64,000 nt of DNA, taken from Telluribacter humicola (GTDB taxonomy: Bacteria > Bacteroidota > Bacteroidia > Cytophagales > Spirosomataceae). Below the pieces are notes generated by a model. That model searched no databases. It worked only from the letters and a program-made list of their open reading frames with translations, and was not told the origin of the DNA. A program made the position numbers and the translations under genes. Below are positions 11,381 to 47,853 of the stretch, piece by piece. The stretch lies in NCBI RefSeq assembly GCF_017355935.1, contig NZ_JAFIQT010000005.1, forward strand, positions 1 to 64,000. The letters run 5' to 3'. Position 1 is the stretch's first letter. Each line of letters opens with the position of its first letter.

Positions 11381-14062
11381 ATGCGATTTACCACTAGTAC
11401 CCATTCCTTACCTCTGGTTATATTATTACTCAGTCTATTTATTTCCGGATGCAGTACAGGTGTACACGTAGAAGAACAGAACCTCACCGACAACTGGACA
11501 ATCATTTCATCAAGAGAGGTACCGGCTGATGTACAGACCTTATCATCAGAATCCTACCCAACCGACAACTGGATAAAGGCTTCCGTGCCTACCACCGTGC
11601 TGGGTGCCCTAGTCGATGCCGGAGTATATAAAGATCCGTTCTTTGGCAAAAACCTGGAAACGATATCTCGCAAACCCTTCGAAGATCCCTGGTGGTTCCG
11701 GACCCGCTTTGAGGTAGCTGACTTTGAGGCGGAAAAAGAGCAGCTCCGCCTGTTGGTAGACGGCATCAACTATCGGGCTGACTTCTGGCTCAATGGGAAG
11801 CAAATTGCCGCGCAGGATACCCTATTTGGCGCTTTCCGCCAGTTCGAGCTGGATATCACCGAAGCGGCCAGGGCCGGTACCAATGTACTCATGGTCAAGG
11901 TACACCCGCCCAAGGTGCGCGACTTCTACATGGGGTTTGTCGATTGGGCACCTACCCCACCCGATCACTACATGGGTATCTACCGCGAGATCCGTCTGAA
12001 ACGCACCGGTAAAGTGTCTATAGACGCGCCCTTTGTACATCCCGATCTGGACCCAAAGAACCTCGCGGAGGCAACGCTGAAAGTAAGTACTGAACTCACC
12101 AACCACAGCAGTTCCCCTCGGACAGTAGTAGTAACCGGTACCATCGAGGATATAAAGCTGGAAAAAGAGGTAAGCCTGGCTCCTCATCAGAAGCAAATAG
12201 TCACTTTTACACCGGAAGAATTTGATCAGCTCCGCATCCGGAATCCACGCCTGTGGTGGCCCAATGGCTTAGGTAGTCCTGAGCTGTACACCCTGCAACT
12301 GGAACTGAAAGAAGAGGGTACATTATTCGACCAGCAGCAGGTCCGGTTTGGTATCCGAAAGGTCGAGACCTATCTCAACGACAAGGGCGTACGGGGCTAT
12401 AAGGTCAACGGCCGGGAGATACTAATCAAGAGTGGGGGCTGGGTGGATGACCTGTTCCTGCGCTATATGCCAGAGAAGGACGCGGCTCAGATTCGCTACG
12501 TCAAAGAAATGAATCTCAACTCCCTTCGTTTTGAAGGCTTCTGGGGCAATAACCACCACATCTACGACCTCTGCGACGAAAACGGGATCCTGCTCATGGT
12601 GGGCTGGAGCTGTCAGTGGGAATGGCCGGACTACCTGGGTCTGGAACTGAACATGAAAGCCGGGGACGAAAACCTGCCTATCAACGAAGGCGTAGACCGG
12701 TATGCCGTTAAGCTCACACCGGACGAAGAGGTCTTACTCTCTGACTATTTTCGGGATCAGGTCAAGTGGCTACGCAACCATCCAAGCATATTTACCTGGG
12801 CCGGTGGCAGTGACGCCATGCCCAAAACCGGACTCGAAAAAAGGTACCTGCAAACGCTGGCCCAGTACGACCCTACCCGCCCCTTCCTGCTATCAGCGGG
12901 AGCTTTTGAAAGTGAACTGACCGGCTCTTCGGGAATGAAGATGAACGGTCCCTACGAATACGTCCCACCAGTGTACTGGTACGAAGACAAAAAGCTGGGC
13001 GGTGCCTTTGGCTTCAATTCCGAAACAGGTCCCGGACCGCAGGTACCACCGGCAGCGAGTATCCGTCGGATGATCCCCGACGCTGATCTGTGGCCAGCAG
13101 ATAATCCTATGTGGAATTTTCACTCGGGCCGCAAAGACTTCAACACCCTGGGCGTGTACCTGACTGCACTTAACAACAAGTATGGCAAGCCCAAAGACCT
13201 GGAAGAACTTGCCCTGAAAGCACAGGTGATGAACTACGAAGCCATTTGCCCCATGTTCGAAGCCTTTGTTATCAATCGTCCTACGGCTACCGGTGTCGTA
13301 CAATGGATGCTCAATTCGCCCTGGCCAGAGTTTTACTGGCAGCTCTACGACTACTACCTCATGCCTACCGGGGCCTACTACGGCACTAAGAAGGCAGGAC
13401 AGCCCCTGAACCTCATCTACGATTACCATCAACATACCGTACACCTGAGCAACGATACACGCCAACCTATCAAAGACTATAGAGCGGAGTTACAACTACT
13501 GGATCAGCTGTCGAAGGTCGTATATAGCAAAGATACCCTGATAAGTGTAGCCGAGAATAAGGTCATAAATCTGGCTAAGCTTATACCTCTAAAAGGAGAT
13601 GGACAGGTATACTTCCTGGACCTGAAGCTTAAAGACGCATCCAACAAAGTAGTAGCCGATAACTTCTACTGGCTGGCCTCCCGCCCCGACCAACTGGACT
13701 GGACTAAATACTTCTGGTACTATACGCCTCAGAAACAATACGCCGACTTCACGGCACTAGATAAGCTACCACGAGTACCTGTGCAAGCATCTAAAAAAGT
13801 GACCAAAGGGGATGATGAATGGGAAGTAACAGTTACTCTTAAAAACCCAACGGATAAAGTAGCCTTCTTCCTGGAACTGGAACTGGCTCAGGGTGTTGAT
13901 GGCCCGGCGGTACTACCTGTATACTGGTCGGATAATTACGTGTCATTGCTACCCGGTGAAAGCAAAGCCCTGACTGTACGGTGTAGCGGTAAGAATATAG
14001 GACAAAATGACCCTTATGTACGTGTGAAGGGATATAACCTTCAAAAGCCGATTACACTCTAA
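11381..14062 (+). CDS. Glycoside hydrolase family 2 lipoprotein, exo-beta-D-glucosaminidase/mannosidase-like
   Basis: 893 residues from ATG 11381, which gives a lipoprotein signal ending LFISGC; the frame stays open further upstream inside the aminotransferase gene. Domains run sugar-binding jelly roll (about 40-210), immunoglobulin-like (220-340), TIM barrel (350-650) and C-terminal beta domains. SCQWEWPDYLG and FTWAGGSDAMP resemble the exo-beta-D-glucosaminidase (CsxA-type) lineage, in which a Gly-Ser-Asp acid/base replaces the usual Asn-Glu; here Asp478. The nucleophile is likely Glu548 in FNSETGPG. Both positions sit close to those known for CsxA. It would trim terminal beta-linked glucosamine or a related residue at the cell surface or periplasm. 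Confidence 0.88.
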   Translation: MRFTTSTHSLPLVILLLSLFISGCSTGVHVEEQNLTDNWTIISSREVPADVQTLSSESYPTDNWIKASVPTTVLGALVDAGVYKDPFFGKNLETISRKPFEDPWWFRTRFEVADFEAEKEQLRLLVDGINYRADFWLNGKQIAAQDTLFGAFRQFELDITEAARAGTNVLMVKVHPPKVRDFYMGFVDWAPTPPDHYMGIYREIRLKRTGKVSIDAPFVHPDLDPKNLAEATLKVSTELTNHSSSPRTVVVTGTIEDIKLEKEVSLAPHQKQIVTFTPEEFDQLRIRNPRLWWPNGLGSPELYTLQLELKEEGTLFDQQQVRFGIRKVETYLNDKGVRGYKVNGREILIKSGGWVDDLFLRYMPEKDAAQIRYVKEMNLNSLRFEGFWGNNHHIYDLCDENGILLMVGWSCQWEWPDYLGLELNMKAGDENLPINEGVDRYAVKLTPDEEVLLSDYFRDQVKWLRNHPSIFTWAGGSDAMPKTGLEKRYLQTLAQYDPTRPFLLSAGAFESELTGSSGMKMNGPYEYVPPVYWYEDKKLGGAFGFNSETGPGPQVPPAASIRRMIPDADLWPADNPMWNFHSGRKDFNTLGVYLTALNNKYGKPKDLEELALKAQVMNYEAICPMFEAFVINRPTATGVVQWMLNSPWPEFYWQLYDYYLMPTGAYYGTKKAGQPLNLIYDYHQHTVHLSNDTRQPIKDYRAELQLLDQLSKVVYSKDTLISVAENKVINLAKLIPLKGDGQVYFLDLKLKDASNKVVADNFYWLASRPDQLDWTKYFWYYTPQKQYADFTALDKLPRVPVQASKKVTKGDDEWEVTVTLKNPTDKVAFFLELELAQGVDGPAVLPVYWSDNYVSLLPGESKALTVRCSGKNIGQNDPYVRVKGYNLQKPITL

Positions 14063-35521: not shown

Positions 35522-35732
35522 AGAAGAAGGACCTGAGGTCGTCCATAGCTAAATGAAGAACTGAGTGTAAAACTAAATAAGAATAGTACATTTTCCACCT
35601 ACTTTTTCCACCATTTTCATTTGTTTGTCAGTGTAGAAGATGCTTTTGTCTTCATAAAGAAAGGCAGCATCATAAAAAACAACTACTATATGATAAATAA
35701 TAGGTCTGAAACTGAAAAAAGTGTCCATAAAC

Positions 35733-35764
35733 TTTGACATTCCTTTTACAAAAACCTTTATTTG
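35733..35764 (+). promoter_or_regulatory. parA promoter: TTTG, 20-nt spacer, TTTATTTG
   Basis: TTTG at 35733-35736 and TTTATTTG at 35757-35764 fit the Bacteroidota TTTG-N19-21-TAnnTTTG pattern with one mismatch in the -7 box. The parA ATG is 34 nt further on. This argues for the start at 35799 and not the in-frame ATG at 35721, which lies upstream of the promoter. Confidence 0.6.
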
Positions 35765-35798
35765 TCTAAATAACACGCCTAACCCTAAAAGTCTTTGT

Positions 35799-36755
35799 AT
35801 GCTTACTCACGAAAAAGCAGTAGAGTTTTTTCAAAAAAATCCAGCTTTATCGCTGTCAGTTATAGAAAAGGAAGCGGGACTTCCATCCAGTACCTTATCC
35901 AAAGCAGTAGCCGGCAAACGCAACCTGAATGATAAACACCTTCAGGCTCTGCAACCGGTTGTTACGAAGTACGGATTCAAAGATCAGCAACATGCCAAAG
36001 CCAAGGTCATCTCTATCATCAATCACAAAGGAGGAGTAGGTAAAACGACCACTACCATTAACTTGGGAAGGGCACTTTCTATCCTGGGCAACCGGATACT
36101 GCTGATAGATATGGATTCACAGGGTAATCTGACCCAGGCACTTGGGATAGATGAACTGGACCGTCAGGTGGTCAATGCACTACTGCAGAGCGAACCACTA
36201 CCGCTCTATTCCATTGCGGAGCGTTATGATCTGGCTCCAAGTGATCTGGAACTGGCCTATGCTGATCTGGAACTTGTACAGGCAGTAGGAGGGGTCAATC
36301 AGCTACGCAATGCTCTGGCACCACTTCGTCCCCAGTACGACTACATCCTGATCGATTGTCCGCCCGCTCTCAATATCTTCACCAACTCTTCCCTGGTAGC
36401 ATCCAATTCGTGTCTTATAACCTTACAGCCCGAAGCCTCCGCCATGAAAGGGGTAAGTAATCTGTTTGATCGTATATTCCAGGTACGTGACCGTATCAAC
36501 TATGAGTTAAAAGTAGAGGGTATTGTACTTACTATGGTGGATAAGCGACTTAAGGTACATCGTGACATGATTGAATACGTGTATAAGTCTCTGGGCGACT
36601 TTCCAATTTTTAAGACCGAAATCCGGAATAATGTAACGATCAAGGAATCCCAGATAGCGCAACAGGATATATTCAGCTACTCCGAAAACTCCAATGGAGC
36701 TGAGGACTACATGAACCTGGCCAAAGAGCTAATATCCGGAAGCTATCGGAAATGA
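35799..36755 (+). CDS. parA: ParA-type partition ATPase with N-terminal HTH
   Basis: 318 residues from ATG 35799, placed after the promoter-like elements. Residues 1-60 form a helix-turn-helix (SLSVIEKEAGLPSSTLSKAVAGKRNLND), as in plasmid type Ia ParA proteins that repress their own operon. The deviant Walker A is NHKGGVGKTTTTIN, Walker A' is LLIDMDSQGNLTQALG, and Walker B is YILIDCPPALNIFTNSSL. It drives segregation by forming a gradient on the nucleoid, stimulated by ParB bound at the centromere. The parB-like gene follows 64 nt later. Confidence 0.95.
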   Translation: MLTHEKAVEFFQKNPALSLSVIEKEAGLPSSTLSKAVAGKRNLNDKHLQALQPVVTKYGFKDQQHAKAKVISIINHKGGVGKTTTTINLGRALSILGNRILLIDMDSQGNLTQALGIDELDRQVVNALLQSEPLPLYSIAERYDLAPSDLELAYADLELVQAVGGVNQLRNALAPLRPQYDYILIDCPPALNIFTNSSLVASNSCLITLQPEASAMKGVSNLFDRIFQVRDRINYELKVEGIVLTMVDKRLKVHRDMIEYVYKSLGDFPIFKTEIRNNVTIKESQIAQQDIFSYSENSNGAEDYMNLAKELISGSYRK

Positions 36756-36819: not shown

Positions 36820-37782
36820 ATGAAGAAATACCAGAGCTTCTTAGGGGAGAAAAAGATGATAAAAGATCAGGGTCTTCTCCGACACGAGGAAATCCGTAGG
36901 CAGATCAAAGTACTACCAGAACTGGAAGAGTTGATTCCGCCCCTGCAGGAGGATGAATTCAGACAACTGGAAGAAAATATAATCAAGGAGGGATGCCGCG
37001 AAGCTCTACTGATATGGGAAACCACTGAAGATAAGATCAGCAACACTGGTGATAATAACTCCCATACGTTTGTACTCATTGATGGGCATAACCGCTACCG
37101 GATATGTCAGAAAAATGGGCTTGACTTCAAGATTCACCTGGTATCATTTCCCTCGCTTACTGAAGTACGTGAATACATGATTGACAACCAACTGGGTAGA
37201 AGAAACCTGTCGCCGGAGCAAATATCCTACCTGCGTGGTAAAAAATACAATGCTCAGAAGAGTAGTAGAGGCAAATATGATCGATCGGCGCAAAAGGGTC
37301 AAAATGTCCCATTTGATGAAGAGGATGCTAAAGATCATAAGGGACAAAATGACCCTTTTGGTAGCGACACCCAGGGATCTACCTCCCAGCGCTTAGCTAA
37401 GCAGTTTAATGTCAGCGAGAAAACGATCAAACGTGACGCCGAATTTGCGGAAGGATTGGATAAGTTATCTCCCTCATTGCGTAAAGATATCCTGAGTGGT
37501 AAGGCCAGCGTAAAGAAATCCGATATCCAGCAACTAGCCAAAGCCTTTTTAACAACGGGTGAGACGATAGATGATCTGAGCCAGTTTGTACAGATATCAG
37601 AAGGAGGTAAGTCAGAGGAAAAAGCTCAATACCCGGCAATATATGCTGACAGGAAATTGGAATTGAAGAAAAAGCTATCAGATCTGCTCTACAAACTCGA
37701 TAAAGGAGCTACCCAGATAGGCAAGATATGTGATGAAATCATTGCCTGCGCTTCTGACCTTAAAGAACTCTCAAAGAAGTAG
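36820..37782 (+). CDS. ParB-like partition protein
   Basis: 320 residues. The N-terminal ParB/sulfiredoxin-like domain covers about 25-135 (ELIPPLQEDEFRQLEENIIKEGCREALLIWE, VLIDGHNRYRICQ, YMIDNQLGRRNLSPEQISYLRGKKY). The canonical GERRxR box is replaced by DGHNRYR. A charged linker carries two peptide repeats, KGQNVPF and KGQNDPF. An HTH follows (SQRLAKQFNVSEKTIKRDAEFA), and the C-terminus is helical and charged. The DNA encoding the two peptide repeats contains the dyad motif that also recurs in non-coding DNA at 37810 and 21157. It is the second gene of the par operon and ends at a hairpin. Confidence 0.9.
   Translation: MKKYQSFLGEKKMIKDQGLLRHEEIRRQIKVLPELEELIPPLQEDEFRQLEENIIKEGCREALLIWETTEDKISNTGDNNSHTFVLIDGHNRYRICQKNGLDFKIHLVSFPSLTEVREYMIDNQLGRRNLSPEQISYLRGKKYNAQKSSRGKYDRSAQKGQNVPFDEEDAKDHKGQNDPFGSDTQGSTSQRLAKQFNVSEKTIKRDAEFAEGLDKLSPSLRKDILSGKASVKKSDIQQLAKAFLTTGETIDDLSQFVQISEGGKSEEKAQYPAIYADRKLELKKKLSDLLYKLDKGATQIGKICDEIIACASDLKELSKK
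37292..37314. repeat. Dyad motif copy inside the parB-like gene (a)
   Basis: The core GGGTCAAAATGTCCC at 37296-37310 is a near-palindrome. It encodes part of KGQNVPF and matches the 37810 site core except for the changed base in GGG(T/A)C. Confidence 0.55.
37336..37359. repeat. Dyad motif copy inside the parB-like gene (b)
   Basis: The core GGGACAAAATGACCC at 37341-37355, preceded by CATAA as in the 37810 copy (reverse strand), encodes KGQNDPF. It lies 45 nt from copy (a). Confidence 0.55.
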
Positions 37783-37803: not shown

Positions 37804-37840
37804 CGGGAGCATATAGGACATTTTGTCCCTTATGCTCCCG
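37804..37840 (+). terminator. Hairpin after the par operon, built around the dyad motif
   Basis: The outer stem CGGGAGCATA / TATGCTCCCG (37804-37813 and 37831-37840) is perfect. An inner stem GGACA / TGTCC (37816-37820 and 37824-37828) closes a TTT loop, and two mismatched pairs separate the stems. A short T-run follows. It can act as the par terminator, and 37810-37835 is also the second copy of the 26-bp site. Confidence 0.65.
37810..37835. repeat. Dispersed 26-bp dyad site, copy 2 (candidate partition site)
   Basis: It matches 21157-21182 at 25 of 26 positions. It lies 27 nt after the parB-like stop codon, where plasmid centromeres are often found. Confidence 0.6.
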
Positions 37841-37886
37841 TTTCATATGTAAGTGGTTGATGTAAAATGGGTTTATATGATTTATT

Positions 37887-38759
37887 ACGACAAAATCCTC
37901 GTGAAACGGACTCTTATTTAAGCCATGCAGGTAGGAGTAGCTAGACCAGTAGAGGCTCAATTGCGACAAAATCCTAGTGAATGTAAGGAGCAGATTAAAT
38001 AATGGTCCCTTAATTACGACGAAATCCTCGTGTATTTTATGGTCTGCATCCATCGGATTGTGTGGATGCATGTCCATTTTTTCGTCAACTTAAGAAGTAC
38101 TAACTGCGACAAAAACCTCGTAGAAAAGACAAAGCTGGCAGGGGCTGGCAGAAATATATTGCGACAAAATCCTAGTGAGGATATACATTAATGTACGAAG
38201 ATCTTCAGGTTTTACTAGTAGTATCAGTTGAGCAACTACGACAAAATCCTCGTGATTATTCTTGTTTGTTTTACTTGTGATACGGAATGGGAAATAGTGA
38301 GACTTGTCATCAGGAGAAGTAGTGTAAACTACGACAAAATCCTAGTAGAAGCGGAGCATCATCACTTAAGGTTTAATTCGGAATTACGACAAAAACCTAG
38401 TGAAAGAGTATCTAAAACGCAAGGTAGTGTATAGGCTCAATTACGACAGAATCCTCGTGATAGTCCACCATTGATTTCAAAAAAAAATGCTACTACGACA
38501 AAATCCTCGTGAAAATAGTAGCGTTCAGGTATGGGTTTAACAGTTTGTTAGACTTTTCGAAGTTGGTGTGGGATGAAAGAAATAAGATCACTTATAGAGT
38601 GGGGGAGGAGCTCTATTTTGGTTATTCTCAGTACGGGTAGAAGGTGGAGTCACCAACAACTATTTATGTAAGAACCGGATACTAAACCTGGTAAATCCAG
38701 GATAGTGATAACTCCTTATATATCAGAACTATTTCGCTAACTACGACAAAATCCTCGTG
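37887..38759 (+). repeat. Eleven dispersed iterons, 17-bp core ACGACAAAATCCTCGTG
   Basis: Direct copies, all in one orientation, start at 37887, 37963, 38016, 38106, 38161, 38238, 38331, 38386, 38443, 38495 and 38743. Variants change the first base (A/G), CTC to CTA, and AATCC to AACCC-type positions. Each core has short inverted ends ACGA-N8-TCGT. Spacing clusters near 53-57, 76-77 and 90-93 bp, then a 248-bp gap. Sequences between copies are unrelated to each other. They are likely binding sites for the Rep protein, in a copy-control role. Confidence 0.88.
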
Positions 38760-38961
38760 CCGGGCCTACTTAATTCAATAGGTTATTGATTCTTGTTTTT
38801 CTTTGTTTTTTCTAGTTTTCTCCTCTATTTCTAGAGTTATCCACACTATAAAGCCCCCTAATAGTCTACAGCAATCTATTGTGTATTTATTTATGATTTT
38901 AATACTTGTTATTTGAGGGTGTTATAATAGATTGTAATACAACTAGTTATGAGGTGGTGCT
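38760..38961 (+). other. AT-rich origin segment (candidate DNA-unwinding element)
   Basis: About 200 bp between the two iteron groups. It contains a T-rich pyrimidine tract on the plus strand (about 38790-38832), a DnaA box, and strongly AT-rich DNA up to the tandem iterons. This arrangement is usual at iteron origins, where Rep and DnaA open the duplex. Confidence 0.6.
38837..38845 (+). promoter_or_regulatory. DnaA box TTATCCACA
   Basis: An exact match to the DnaA consensus, placed between the pyrimidine tract and the tandem iterons of the origin. Confidence 0.7.
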
Positions 38962-39106
38962 ACGACATAATCCTCGTTTGGTACGTCATATTCCTCGTTA
39001 CATACGACACTTTCCTCGTTGATCTGCGTCTTAATCCTCGTTTGATGCGACAGAATCCTCGGAGACCTGCGACAAAATCCTCGTCAATTGCGACAAAACT
39101 TATCCA
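38962..39106 (+). repeat. Seven tandem iterons at 21-22 bp period, core ending in CTCGTT
   Basis: Copies start at 38962, 38983, 39004, 39026, 39047, 39069 and 39090, so they lie two helical turns apart on one DNA face. The consensus is RCGACAnAATCCTCGTT, more degenerate in the first half (CGTC variants) than in the dispersed set. The last copy keeps only the first half, GCGACAAAA, then becomes TTATCCACT. This is the likely replication origin proper, directly before the rep gene. Confidence 0.9.
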
Positions 39107-39126
39107 CTGTCGCAGTAGTATACTTG
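39090..39126 (+). promoter_or_regulatory. Rep promoter with inverted iteron halves (candidate autorepression operator)
   Basis: GCGACA (39090-39095) and TGTCGC (39108-39113) form a dyad. Inside it lies a DnaA-like TTATCCACT (39100-39108), and a -7-like TATACTTG (39119-39126) follows at once. The rep ATG is at 39165. In iteron plasmids, Rep dimers bind inverted half-iterons to repress rep; this layout fits that scheme. Confidence 0.55.
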
Positions 39127-46872: not shown

Positions 46873-47853
46873 TCAATGATTCGTCATTCTAGCCATTTCA
46901 GCATTGTAGCGGGGGCCAGTATTAGGGTACTTCTGGAGTAACTTCTCAATTGCGACTAAATCCTCGTTTGTCAGGGTTATGTCAACCACGGCAGCATTTT
47001 CTTCCAGGTACTTTCTTTTCTTGGTACCGGGTATTGGAATAATCGTCTCGCCCTGTGCAAGTACCCATGCCAGGGCAAGTTGAGCCGGTGTCGCATTTTT
47101 AGAGCTGGCTATTGCTGCGAATTCTTCCGCCAACCTCTGATTGTTTATGGCATATTCGTCCTGATAGCGGGGTAGCTTCCGCCGGAAATCGTTTTCACCT
47201 AGATTTGAAATATCAAGGGTATTCGTTACCAGACCCCGGGCCAGCGGACTGAATGGTACAAAGGCAATGCCTAGTTCGAGGGTCAGAGGGAGTATTTCAT
47301 CCTCTACCTCACGGGTCAGTACCGAGTACTCACTCTGCAGCGCAGCGATCGGGTGTACAGCATGGGCTTTCCGGATGGATGCGGTCGAAGCCTCTGATAG
47401 TCCCAGGTACCTAACCTTACCTTCTTTGACCAGTTCGGCCATAGCACCTACGGTTTCTTCAACGGGTACATTAGGATCTACGCGGTGGGCATAGTAAAGA
47501 TCAATGTAATCGGTACGTAACCGCCGGAGGCTCCTCTCCACGGCAATTTTTAGATAGGCAGGAGAGCCATCAAATACCTGCTTCCCGTCATCATCCAGCT
47601 TGAAACCAAATTTGGTAGCCAGGAATATTTTATCACGATTAGGTACCAGTACCTCCGACACTAATTTTTCATTCTCCCCATTGGCGTACATGTCTGCTGT
47701 ATCCCAGAAGGTAATGCCCAACTCAATGGCCCTTTGCAGGGTTGCAATAGATTCTTTATCATCGGGTTGGCCATAGGCGTGGTTCATCCCCATACAACCC
47801 AGTCCGATGGCAGACAATTCTACACCGGTATTTCCAAGTTTTCTGAATTTCAT
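46873..47853 (-). CDS. Aldo/keto reductase (YakC/IolS-like)
   Basis: 326 residues, TIM barrel. [44 protein letters not shown] (catalytic Asp, Tyr), FLATKFGFK (Lys), [13 protein letters not shown] (His) and the NADPH site [17 protein letters not shown] are present. It reduces carbonyls with NADPH; the physiological substrate is unknown. Near the 3' end, 46952-46968 matches the plasmid iteron core with one mismatch. Confidence 0.95.
46952..46968 (+). repeat. Iteron-like 17-mer inside the aldo/keto reductase gene
   Basis: GCGACTAAATCCTCGTT differs from the tandem-iteron consensus at one base (T for A) and has the same orientation as the array about 8 kb away. It also encodes the family-typical [10 protein letters not shown] on the minus strand, so coincidence is possible. 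Confidence 0.35.

Follow-up and report, generated by a model that had tools for sequence, protein, structure and literature searches.

A ladder of conserved iterons beside the origin of a Rep3-type Telluribacter megaplasmid, probably a copy-control region, and four lone iterons around the circle

What are 17 copies of a single iteron doing beside one plasmid rep gene, and why do four more stand alone elsewhere on the same replicon? The question is raised by contig C20 (362,952 bp) of the 6.56-Mb genome of Telluribacter humicola, whose bases 1-64000 make up the stretch of 64,000 nt analysed here, hereafter the window. In the best explanation that we can offer, the window carries the origin of a megaplasmid of ~363 kb with a Rep3-type initiator (Rep), together with the region that controls its copy number, and ten of the iterons form a ladder that is quite probably a negative control region of the incC/ori2-inc kind, working through titration and handcuffing.

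The 17-bp iteron TRCGACAAAATCCTMGT occurs in 17 full copies, all of them on the + strand, 11 dispersed (37886-38758) and 6 in tandem (38961-39084). With up to 4 mismatches allowed, 200 Markov-1 simulations of the 1.4-kb stretch gave a mean of 0.06 such sites and a maximum of 1. The original prediction had counted 18 copies in one orientation, seven of them in tandem at 21-22 bp; the orientation and the spacing hold, whereas the numbers come down to 17 and six. The would-be seventh tandem copy (39089/39090) is a half-site, its match being restricted to TGCGACAAAA and continuing into TTATCCACTGTCGCA, a DnaA-like box that forms the second arm of an inverted repeat. Eleven dispersed copies over 870 bp had also been claimed and were indeed found, across 873 bp, and most of their steps (76, 53, 90, 55, 77, 93, 55, 57, 52 and 248 bp) agree with the proposed classes of 53-57, 76-77 and 90-93 bp, from which the 248-bp step had been omitted. 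Because the copy at 38742 sits where relatives keep their distal origin iteron or iterons, the extra set is better counted as the ten copies of the ladder.

Selection on the dispersed copies is supported by comparison with a sister replicon, made up of contigs C12 and C11 of another Telluribacter genome (392,275 bases compared, with C11 covered up to base 219,000 of 220,636). Each of the 11 dispersed copies has a counterpart at the corresponding place in the sister species; of the core positions, 258 of 289 are identical (89%), against 566 of 1156 positions outside the cores (49%). Moreover, the ten dispersed intervals differ between both species by 1, 1, 1, 1, 4, 16, 1, 0, 2 and 1 bp, so that eight of them are kept within 2 bp, as compared with 1 of 16 unaligned gaps elsewhere on the replicon (median difference, 28). 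The ungapped identity of the spacers, in turn, lies within 2 standard deviations of that of shuffled spacers in seven of the ten intervals. Since interval lengths are mostly kept and spacer sequences are mostly random-like, length appears to be under constraint where sequence mostly is not, which suggests that protein and DNA take up a defined geometry here and that the ladder is more than a sponge.

As regards the original suggestion that the two sets may bind Rep with different strength, the dispersed copies are more alike than the tandem ones (mean pairwise mismatches of 1.6 and 3.5, respectively) and keep the outer WAY bases in all 11 cases, against none of the six tandem copies. That they lie nearer the consensus, and at matching places in the sister, makes it highly improbable that they are the decaying relic of a duplicated origin, as their common core and their steps unlike those of the tandem set might otherwise have suggested. 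In the search matrix, to which all 17 copies of the window contributed, the dispersed ones carry more weight. A split of the suffixes, GTG for dispersed and GTT for tandem copies, is present in the window as originally described (9 of 11 and 4 of 6). In the sister species just 2 of the 11 dispersed copies end in GTG, as read from the alignment, and the suffix code as worded was dropped because it is not kept there. An RNA element was considered too and rejected, given that no Rfam family reached its gathering score in the window and most spacers are unconserved.

Several observations weigh against a control ladder, or against part of the argument just given. The control gaps are mostly longer than the ladder intervals and were picked for not aligning, which favours indels; one dispersed interval differs by 16 bp between the species; and spacer identity exceeds the shuffled null by more than 2 standard deviations in three of the ten intervals (those after 37962, 38237 and 38494), so that not every spacer is saturated. 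There is no helical phasing in the dispersed set either, with R of 0.20 at 10.5 bp and a best value of 0.60 between 10 and 11 bp, where the 95% null stands at 0.69. Fixed intervals would be unnecessary for a pure sponge. The ladder is present in two genomes only, and two Runella plasmids with the same iteron, searched whole with the exact pattern, show origin iterons only, so that this Rep family can do without the extra iterons. Finally, the raw cumulative GC skew of C20 has its minimum at 362 kb, away from the origin.

The neighbourhood of the ladder has the anatomy of an origin. As originally stated, the iterons are flanked by a rep gene and a par pair: a Rep3 (WH1/WH2) gene and a parA/parB-like pair adjoin the array. 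The closest solved relative of Rep by sequence is the replication initiation protein of PDB 1rep (2.5e-20), which we take to be RepE of plasmid F, and the NCBIfam RepE model is matched at 2e-27, below its cut-off. The nearest named relative found for Rep belongs to Telluribacter sp. SYSU D00476 (94% identity). Together with tandem iterons spaced near two helical turns, a DnaA box and an AT-rich region at the origin, and an inverted repeat of an iteron half before rep, which is a probable operator for Rep autoregulation, the locus has the make-up of an iteron-regulated Rep3 theta replicon. A search for the core in other Cytophagales plasmids had been proposed, and the exact pattern was in fact found in 12 of 222 genomes of the family, within 5 of 36 genera; these family scans used exact patterns, so that diverged copies are missed. 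A genome of the same genus listed there (G220) agrees with the sister genome (G001) in contig numbers and in the positions of its matches. Once two genomes with contig fragments (G164 and G170) were left out, ten origins could be compared, and all of them show the same order: first come one or two distal iterons, next a stretch rich in T and an AT-rich block, and then five or six tandem iterons at 21-22 bp, the half-iteron with its inverted repeat (judged by eye, and partial in G158) and rep. A DnaA box with at most 1 mismatch lies between distal and tandem iterons in 8 of the 10 (not in G158 and G159). Single exact matches to the degenerate pattern on other contigs of the relatives (G159:C2 and G196:C1) amount to two in 11 genomes, and were taken as chance since the reversed control also gave two.

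From this arrangement we infer how the system could work. Monomers of Rep bound to the six tandem iterons, which are in phase, would act with DnaA at its box to open the AT-rich block and start replication, and at the inverted repeat of the half-iteron Rep would repress the rep gene. The ten ladder iterons (37886-38510), lying outside the minimal origin and sharing its iteron as incC- or incA-type regions do, would bind Rep otherwise destined for the tandem set, and ladder-bound Rep would bridge, or handcuff, the tandem set either in cis or on a sister plasmid. The earlier idea of a titration or handcuffing region is, in our view, sound but unproven.

The analysis can be extended to the whole replicon. 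C20 is most likely a complete circle, because it is collinear with C12 and C11 when these are read as a circle and the outermost long matches from both of its ends land at most 1.8 kb apart on C12. Between C20 and its sister 285,272 of 362,952 bases are aligned, with 79.9% identity and unaligned stretches interspersed, and the GC skew, once detrended, is lowest at 33 kb and highest at 210 kb, which fits an origin near 39 kb. A scan of C20 in 17 pieces found no tRNA gene, and the possibility of a chromid with tRNA genes was rejected on these grounds. When the matrix from the 17 copies was run over C20, it revealed four lone iterons besides the array (Table 1), the next-best match scoring 11.7 bits. 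In the sister sequence the same matrix found the array and these four sites, and none else above 14 bits. They lie 8, 53, 115 and 123 kb from the origin on C20 and 7, 50, 121 and 112 kb from it in the sister (near-right, mid-left, far-left and far-right, assuming that C12 and C11 abut); on C20 the third and fourth are at 0.63 and 0.68 of an arm, and a placement in early-copied DNA fits the first two only. The site at 46951, inside the window, was absent from the original prediction, and the other three lie beyond the stretch on which that prediction was based; it stands within a 33-bp run identical in the sister species, and the open reading frame (ORF) around it presumably encodes an aldo/keto reductase. 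The two far sites (C20:161696 and 287182) share the variant TACGACATTTTCCTCGT in both species; on C20 they are at similar distances, 123 and 115 kb, on the two arms.

Could these four be chance matches, the three coding ones being kept only through the conservation of their proteins? Three of the four (46951, 349198 and 161696) do fall in ORFs whose proteins are 83-94% identical between the species, and are read in one shared frame. Fully identical six-codon windows are nonetheless rare in the three genes (18 of 321, 13 of 439 and 9 of 492); in the second of them the first codon, which the 17-mer covers only in part, carries a difference that falls outside the 17-mer. The fourth site lies between ORFs, just downstream of one that resembles a response regulator, in a stretch that otherwise does not align; in the sister all four are identical at 17 of 17 positions, as are 12,314 of 284,360 aligned 17-mers in the background (4.3%). 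As for the scores, the reversed matrix reaches up to 15.4 bits on C20, and an off-replicon match at C1:108051 attains 22.4 bits, as high as the 22.0 bits of the far sites. It is, however, the only one above 20 bits among the 40 matches listed outside C20 with at most 3 mismatches, from which ~0.06 such sites would be expected on C20 against the four seen (rough P of 5e-7). We therefore consider a chance origin unlikely. Copies of this iteron on the other contigs were rejected, those 40 matches comparing with 49 that the reversed pattern gave genome-wide. A different candidate, that the lone sites are relics of a lost mobilisation region, was rejected after six proteins from such a region of a relative (G115) gave no tblastn match at 1e-3 on C20 or the sister stretches. 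In all three coding sites the shared frame reads E-[DEV]-[FLN]-V-[AV], as in an ORF of conjugative relatives described below.

Most likely the four lone iterons act in the same system as extra Rep sites, each duplicated in turn by the forks. A bolder possibility is that the initiator uses single iterons across the replicon to read the progress of replication or to fold the circle. Rep bound at the origin or the ladder would then contact the lone sites at ~4%, 26-29%, 57-68% and 61-63% of the arms (two species), and a fork passing each of them would change the pairing and license or block the next round. A positional role of this sort (pairing, folding or a fork-passage signal) is kept as a tentative idea, with a small but real chance of being right, because four sites against seventeen add little to titration.

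Iterons away from the origin are also found in four relatives, as clusters 5-31 kb from it, three of them in a mobilisation region. There G115, G159 and G203 have two further clusters each, with 3-5 copies per cluster (at most 2 mismatches). One cluster lies between the end of the relaxase gene and the start of the gene for the VirD4-type coupling protein, overlapping the last bases of the former in G115 and G203; the flanking genes of G115 match Pfam Relaxase, and T4SS-DNA_transf with NCBIfam Bacteroid_MobC. The other is inside an ORF (L108:13871-14758, L113:13083-13946 and L118:7630-8520) in which the iteron is translated as EDFVVV, and whose G115 protein has no Pfam or NCBIfam match. Eight copies are listed over the three genes, seven with the codons GAG GAT TTT GTC GTA GTT and one with GCA for GTA, in an otherwise poorly aligned linker; the motif search barred R before EDFVVV, so that one further copy in the G159 gene (REDFVVV) is uncounted. 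G158 has three iterons at the corresponding place, ahead of a start codon and in DNA interrupted by stop codons. Since conjugative cousins carry the same site code in the mobilisation region, partly as EDFVVV, the state of replication and transfer may perhaps be linked, a suggestion that we hold as loosely as the positional role. The position of the cluster between relaxase and coupling-protein genes would also suit a Rep acting mainly as a transcription regulator of par or tra functions at its non-tandem sites. We find this doubtful for C20, where the ladder lies downstream of the parB-like gene and not in front of par, and where none of the lone sites is at a promoter, three being within ORFs and the fourth behind one.

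Other replicons offer further cases of dispersed iterons. C1 and C19, of the same T. humicola genome, have Rep3 genes of their own with their own, different iterons: 6 tandem and 12 dispersed ones on both strands in C1, plus one weak distant match (51675, 18.2 bits), and 8 tandem and 8 dispersed ones in C19, an arrangement that recurs on contig C7 of the sister genome. The weaker C19 sites are less sure because the reversed-matrix control reaches 18.9 bits there. As both repeat the tandem-plus-dispersed plan with different iterons, this two-tier plan is common to the three Rep3 replicons of the genome, and C20 alone among them showed lone sites at over 50 kb from the origin. At C1:77742-78554 the dispersed iterons occupy both strands, and three are arranged as inverted pairs, 24-28 bp apart. 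In a plasmid of Spirosoma oryzicola (L120), three extra perfect iterons (8769, 8844 and 9075), two of them inverted, precede the origin pair by 0.4-0.7 kb, where the plasmid record annotates no gene.

The par genes upstream of the ladder raise another explanation, by which the dispersed iterons would be the par centromere or a platform shared by Rep and ParB, and the lone copies distal parS-like sites. The ladder does adjoin the parB-like gene, and scattered single sites are typical of chromosomal parS. The iteron, on the other hand, is non-palindromic and is the same site as the tandem array beside rep, and the remote clusters of the four relatives, three in mobilisation regions, are hard to reconcile with a centromere. 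Above all, a separate palindrome, GGGWCAWWWTGWCCC, a candidate parS, is found three times in or after the parB-like gene, the third in a hairpin with arms at 37804-37820 and 37824-37840; two scrambled patterns gave none on C20 at 0-1 mismatch. At matching places in the sister species it has a weaker form (1, 1 and 2 mismatches), and beside the par genes of Runella it was not seen; it is therefore only a candidate. Because this palindrome fits parS better, we regard a centromeric ladder as very unlikely and reject it as the principal explanation. The parB-like protein, with a 79% identical counterpart beside ParA in the sister species, matches no Pfam family at 1e-3 and no NCBIfam model, a weak helix-turn-helix match at 188-206 being below its cut-off. 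Another copy of the palindrome (1 mismatch) occurs at window position 13999, 23 kb away, and one more in the parB-like gene of G159 (L112:399).

Table 1. Features of the origin region and lone iterons; coordinates refer to the window, unless preceded by C20
Feature	Position	Strand	Basis or remark
parA-like partition ATPase gene	35721..36755	+	Pfam AAA_31 8.4e-50; NCBIfam ParA-type matches below cut-offs among 25 listed
parB-like gene, 320 amino acids	36820..37782	+	named from its position after parA and from reading; no family match
Candidate parS palindrome 1, GGGWCAWWWTGWCCC	37296..37310	.	exact; inside parB-like gene
Candidate parS palindrome 2	37341..37355	.	exact; inside parB-like gene
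Candidate parS palindrome 3	37815..37829	.	1 mismatch; hairpin directly after parB-like gene
Dispersed iterons (starts)	37886, 37962, 38015, 38105, 38160, 38237, 38330, 38385, 38442, 38494, 38742	+	873 bp
Ladder of 10 dispersed iterons	37886..38510	+	52-93 bp steps; pattern and matrix search, sister alignment
Perfect iteron in place of relatives' distal origin iteron(s)	38742..38758	+	
DnaA box TTATCCACA	38837..38845	+	by eye; box with at most 1 mismatch at matching place in 7 of 9 other origins (not G158, G159)
AT-rich block, probable unwinding element	38863..38923	.	limits by eye; well kept in sister species
Tandem iterons, 6 copies (starts)	38961, 38982, 39003, 39025, 39046, 39068 (38961..39084)	+	steps 21, 21, 22, 21, 22 bp
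Half-iteron and inverted repeat TGCGACA-N12-TGTCGCA, holding TTATCCAC	39089..39114	.	by eye; kept in sister species
rep gene, Rep3-type initiator, 308 amino acids	39165..40091	+	Pfam Rep3_N 2e-34, Rep3_C 5.4e-16
Lone iteron TGCGACTAAATCCTCGT	46951..46967	+	26.0 bits; inside opposite-strand ORF 46873-47853
Lone iteron	C20:349198	+	27.4 bits
Lone iteron	C20:161696	-	22.0 bits
Lone iteron	C20:287182	-	22.0 bits

How does this plasmid compare with known systems? Among open-licence papers, judged by title, none was found on iterons in Spirosoma, on plasmid replication in Telluribacter or on Cytophagales origins. In plasmid F, which has 4 + 5 iterons, incC lies downstream of repE and its deletion raises the copy number (PMC13028717). 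Our locus resembles oriS/repE/incC of F in its Rep3 initiator, tandem iterons, DnaA box, AT-rich region, inverted repeat before rep and a second set expected to be inhibitory. It departs from F in having its 10 extra copies upstream of the origin, at steps of 52-93 bp, and four single copies up to 123 kb away. In P1, incA and incC are extra iterons near rep that act in titration and handcuffing, incA being a short array near repA; the likeness ends with the lone distal copies, which are not known from P1. The datA locus of E. coli is a distal site bound by the initiator DnaA, with control through its nucleotide state. Our replicon is similar in keeping conserved initiator-type sites far from the origin (four, in one sister species), and different in having single sites instead of a cluster and sites of Rep type instead of DnaA. 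RctB, the initiator of Vibrio cholerae chromosome II, is not known to be a Rep3 protein, and it uses two types of site. Two papers report that its extra sites titrate and inhibit (PMC6090056, PMC3937223), and one of them that RctB iteron binding depends on Dam methylation (PMC6090056). Unlike ori2-min/ori2-inc and the distal RctB sites, here we find one type of site, on a plasmid, with two of the four lone copies ~0.6-0.7 along each arm.

Three things go beyond the precedents of F incC and RctB: the ladder with its conserved intervals, the four conserved sites that stand singly, and the clusters in the mobilisation regions of relatives. Titration needs the number of sites only, while handcuffing or folding needs geometry; a ladder with mostly kept lengths and mostly unkept spacers separates the two, something hard to do in F or P1, and makes the question of number versus geometry directly testable. 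In conjugative relatives, initiator-type sites are even held inside a protein-coding sequence whose codons are nearly fixed. According to a paper that also names datA (PMC3937223), no plasmid is known to make active use of the elongation phase for regulation. The plasmid studied here, with its initiator of the RepE family, keeps four initiator-type sites standing singly, two of them over 100 kb out, with the 17-mer unchanged while the aligned DNA is ~80% identical, which suggests that the C20 plasmid may count or organise itself through its iterons.
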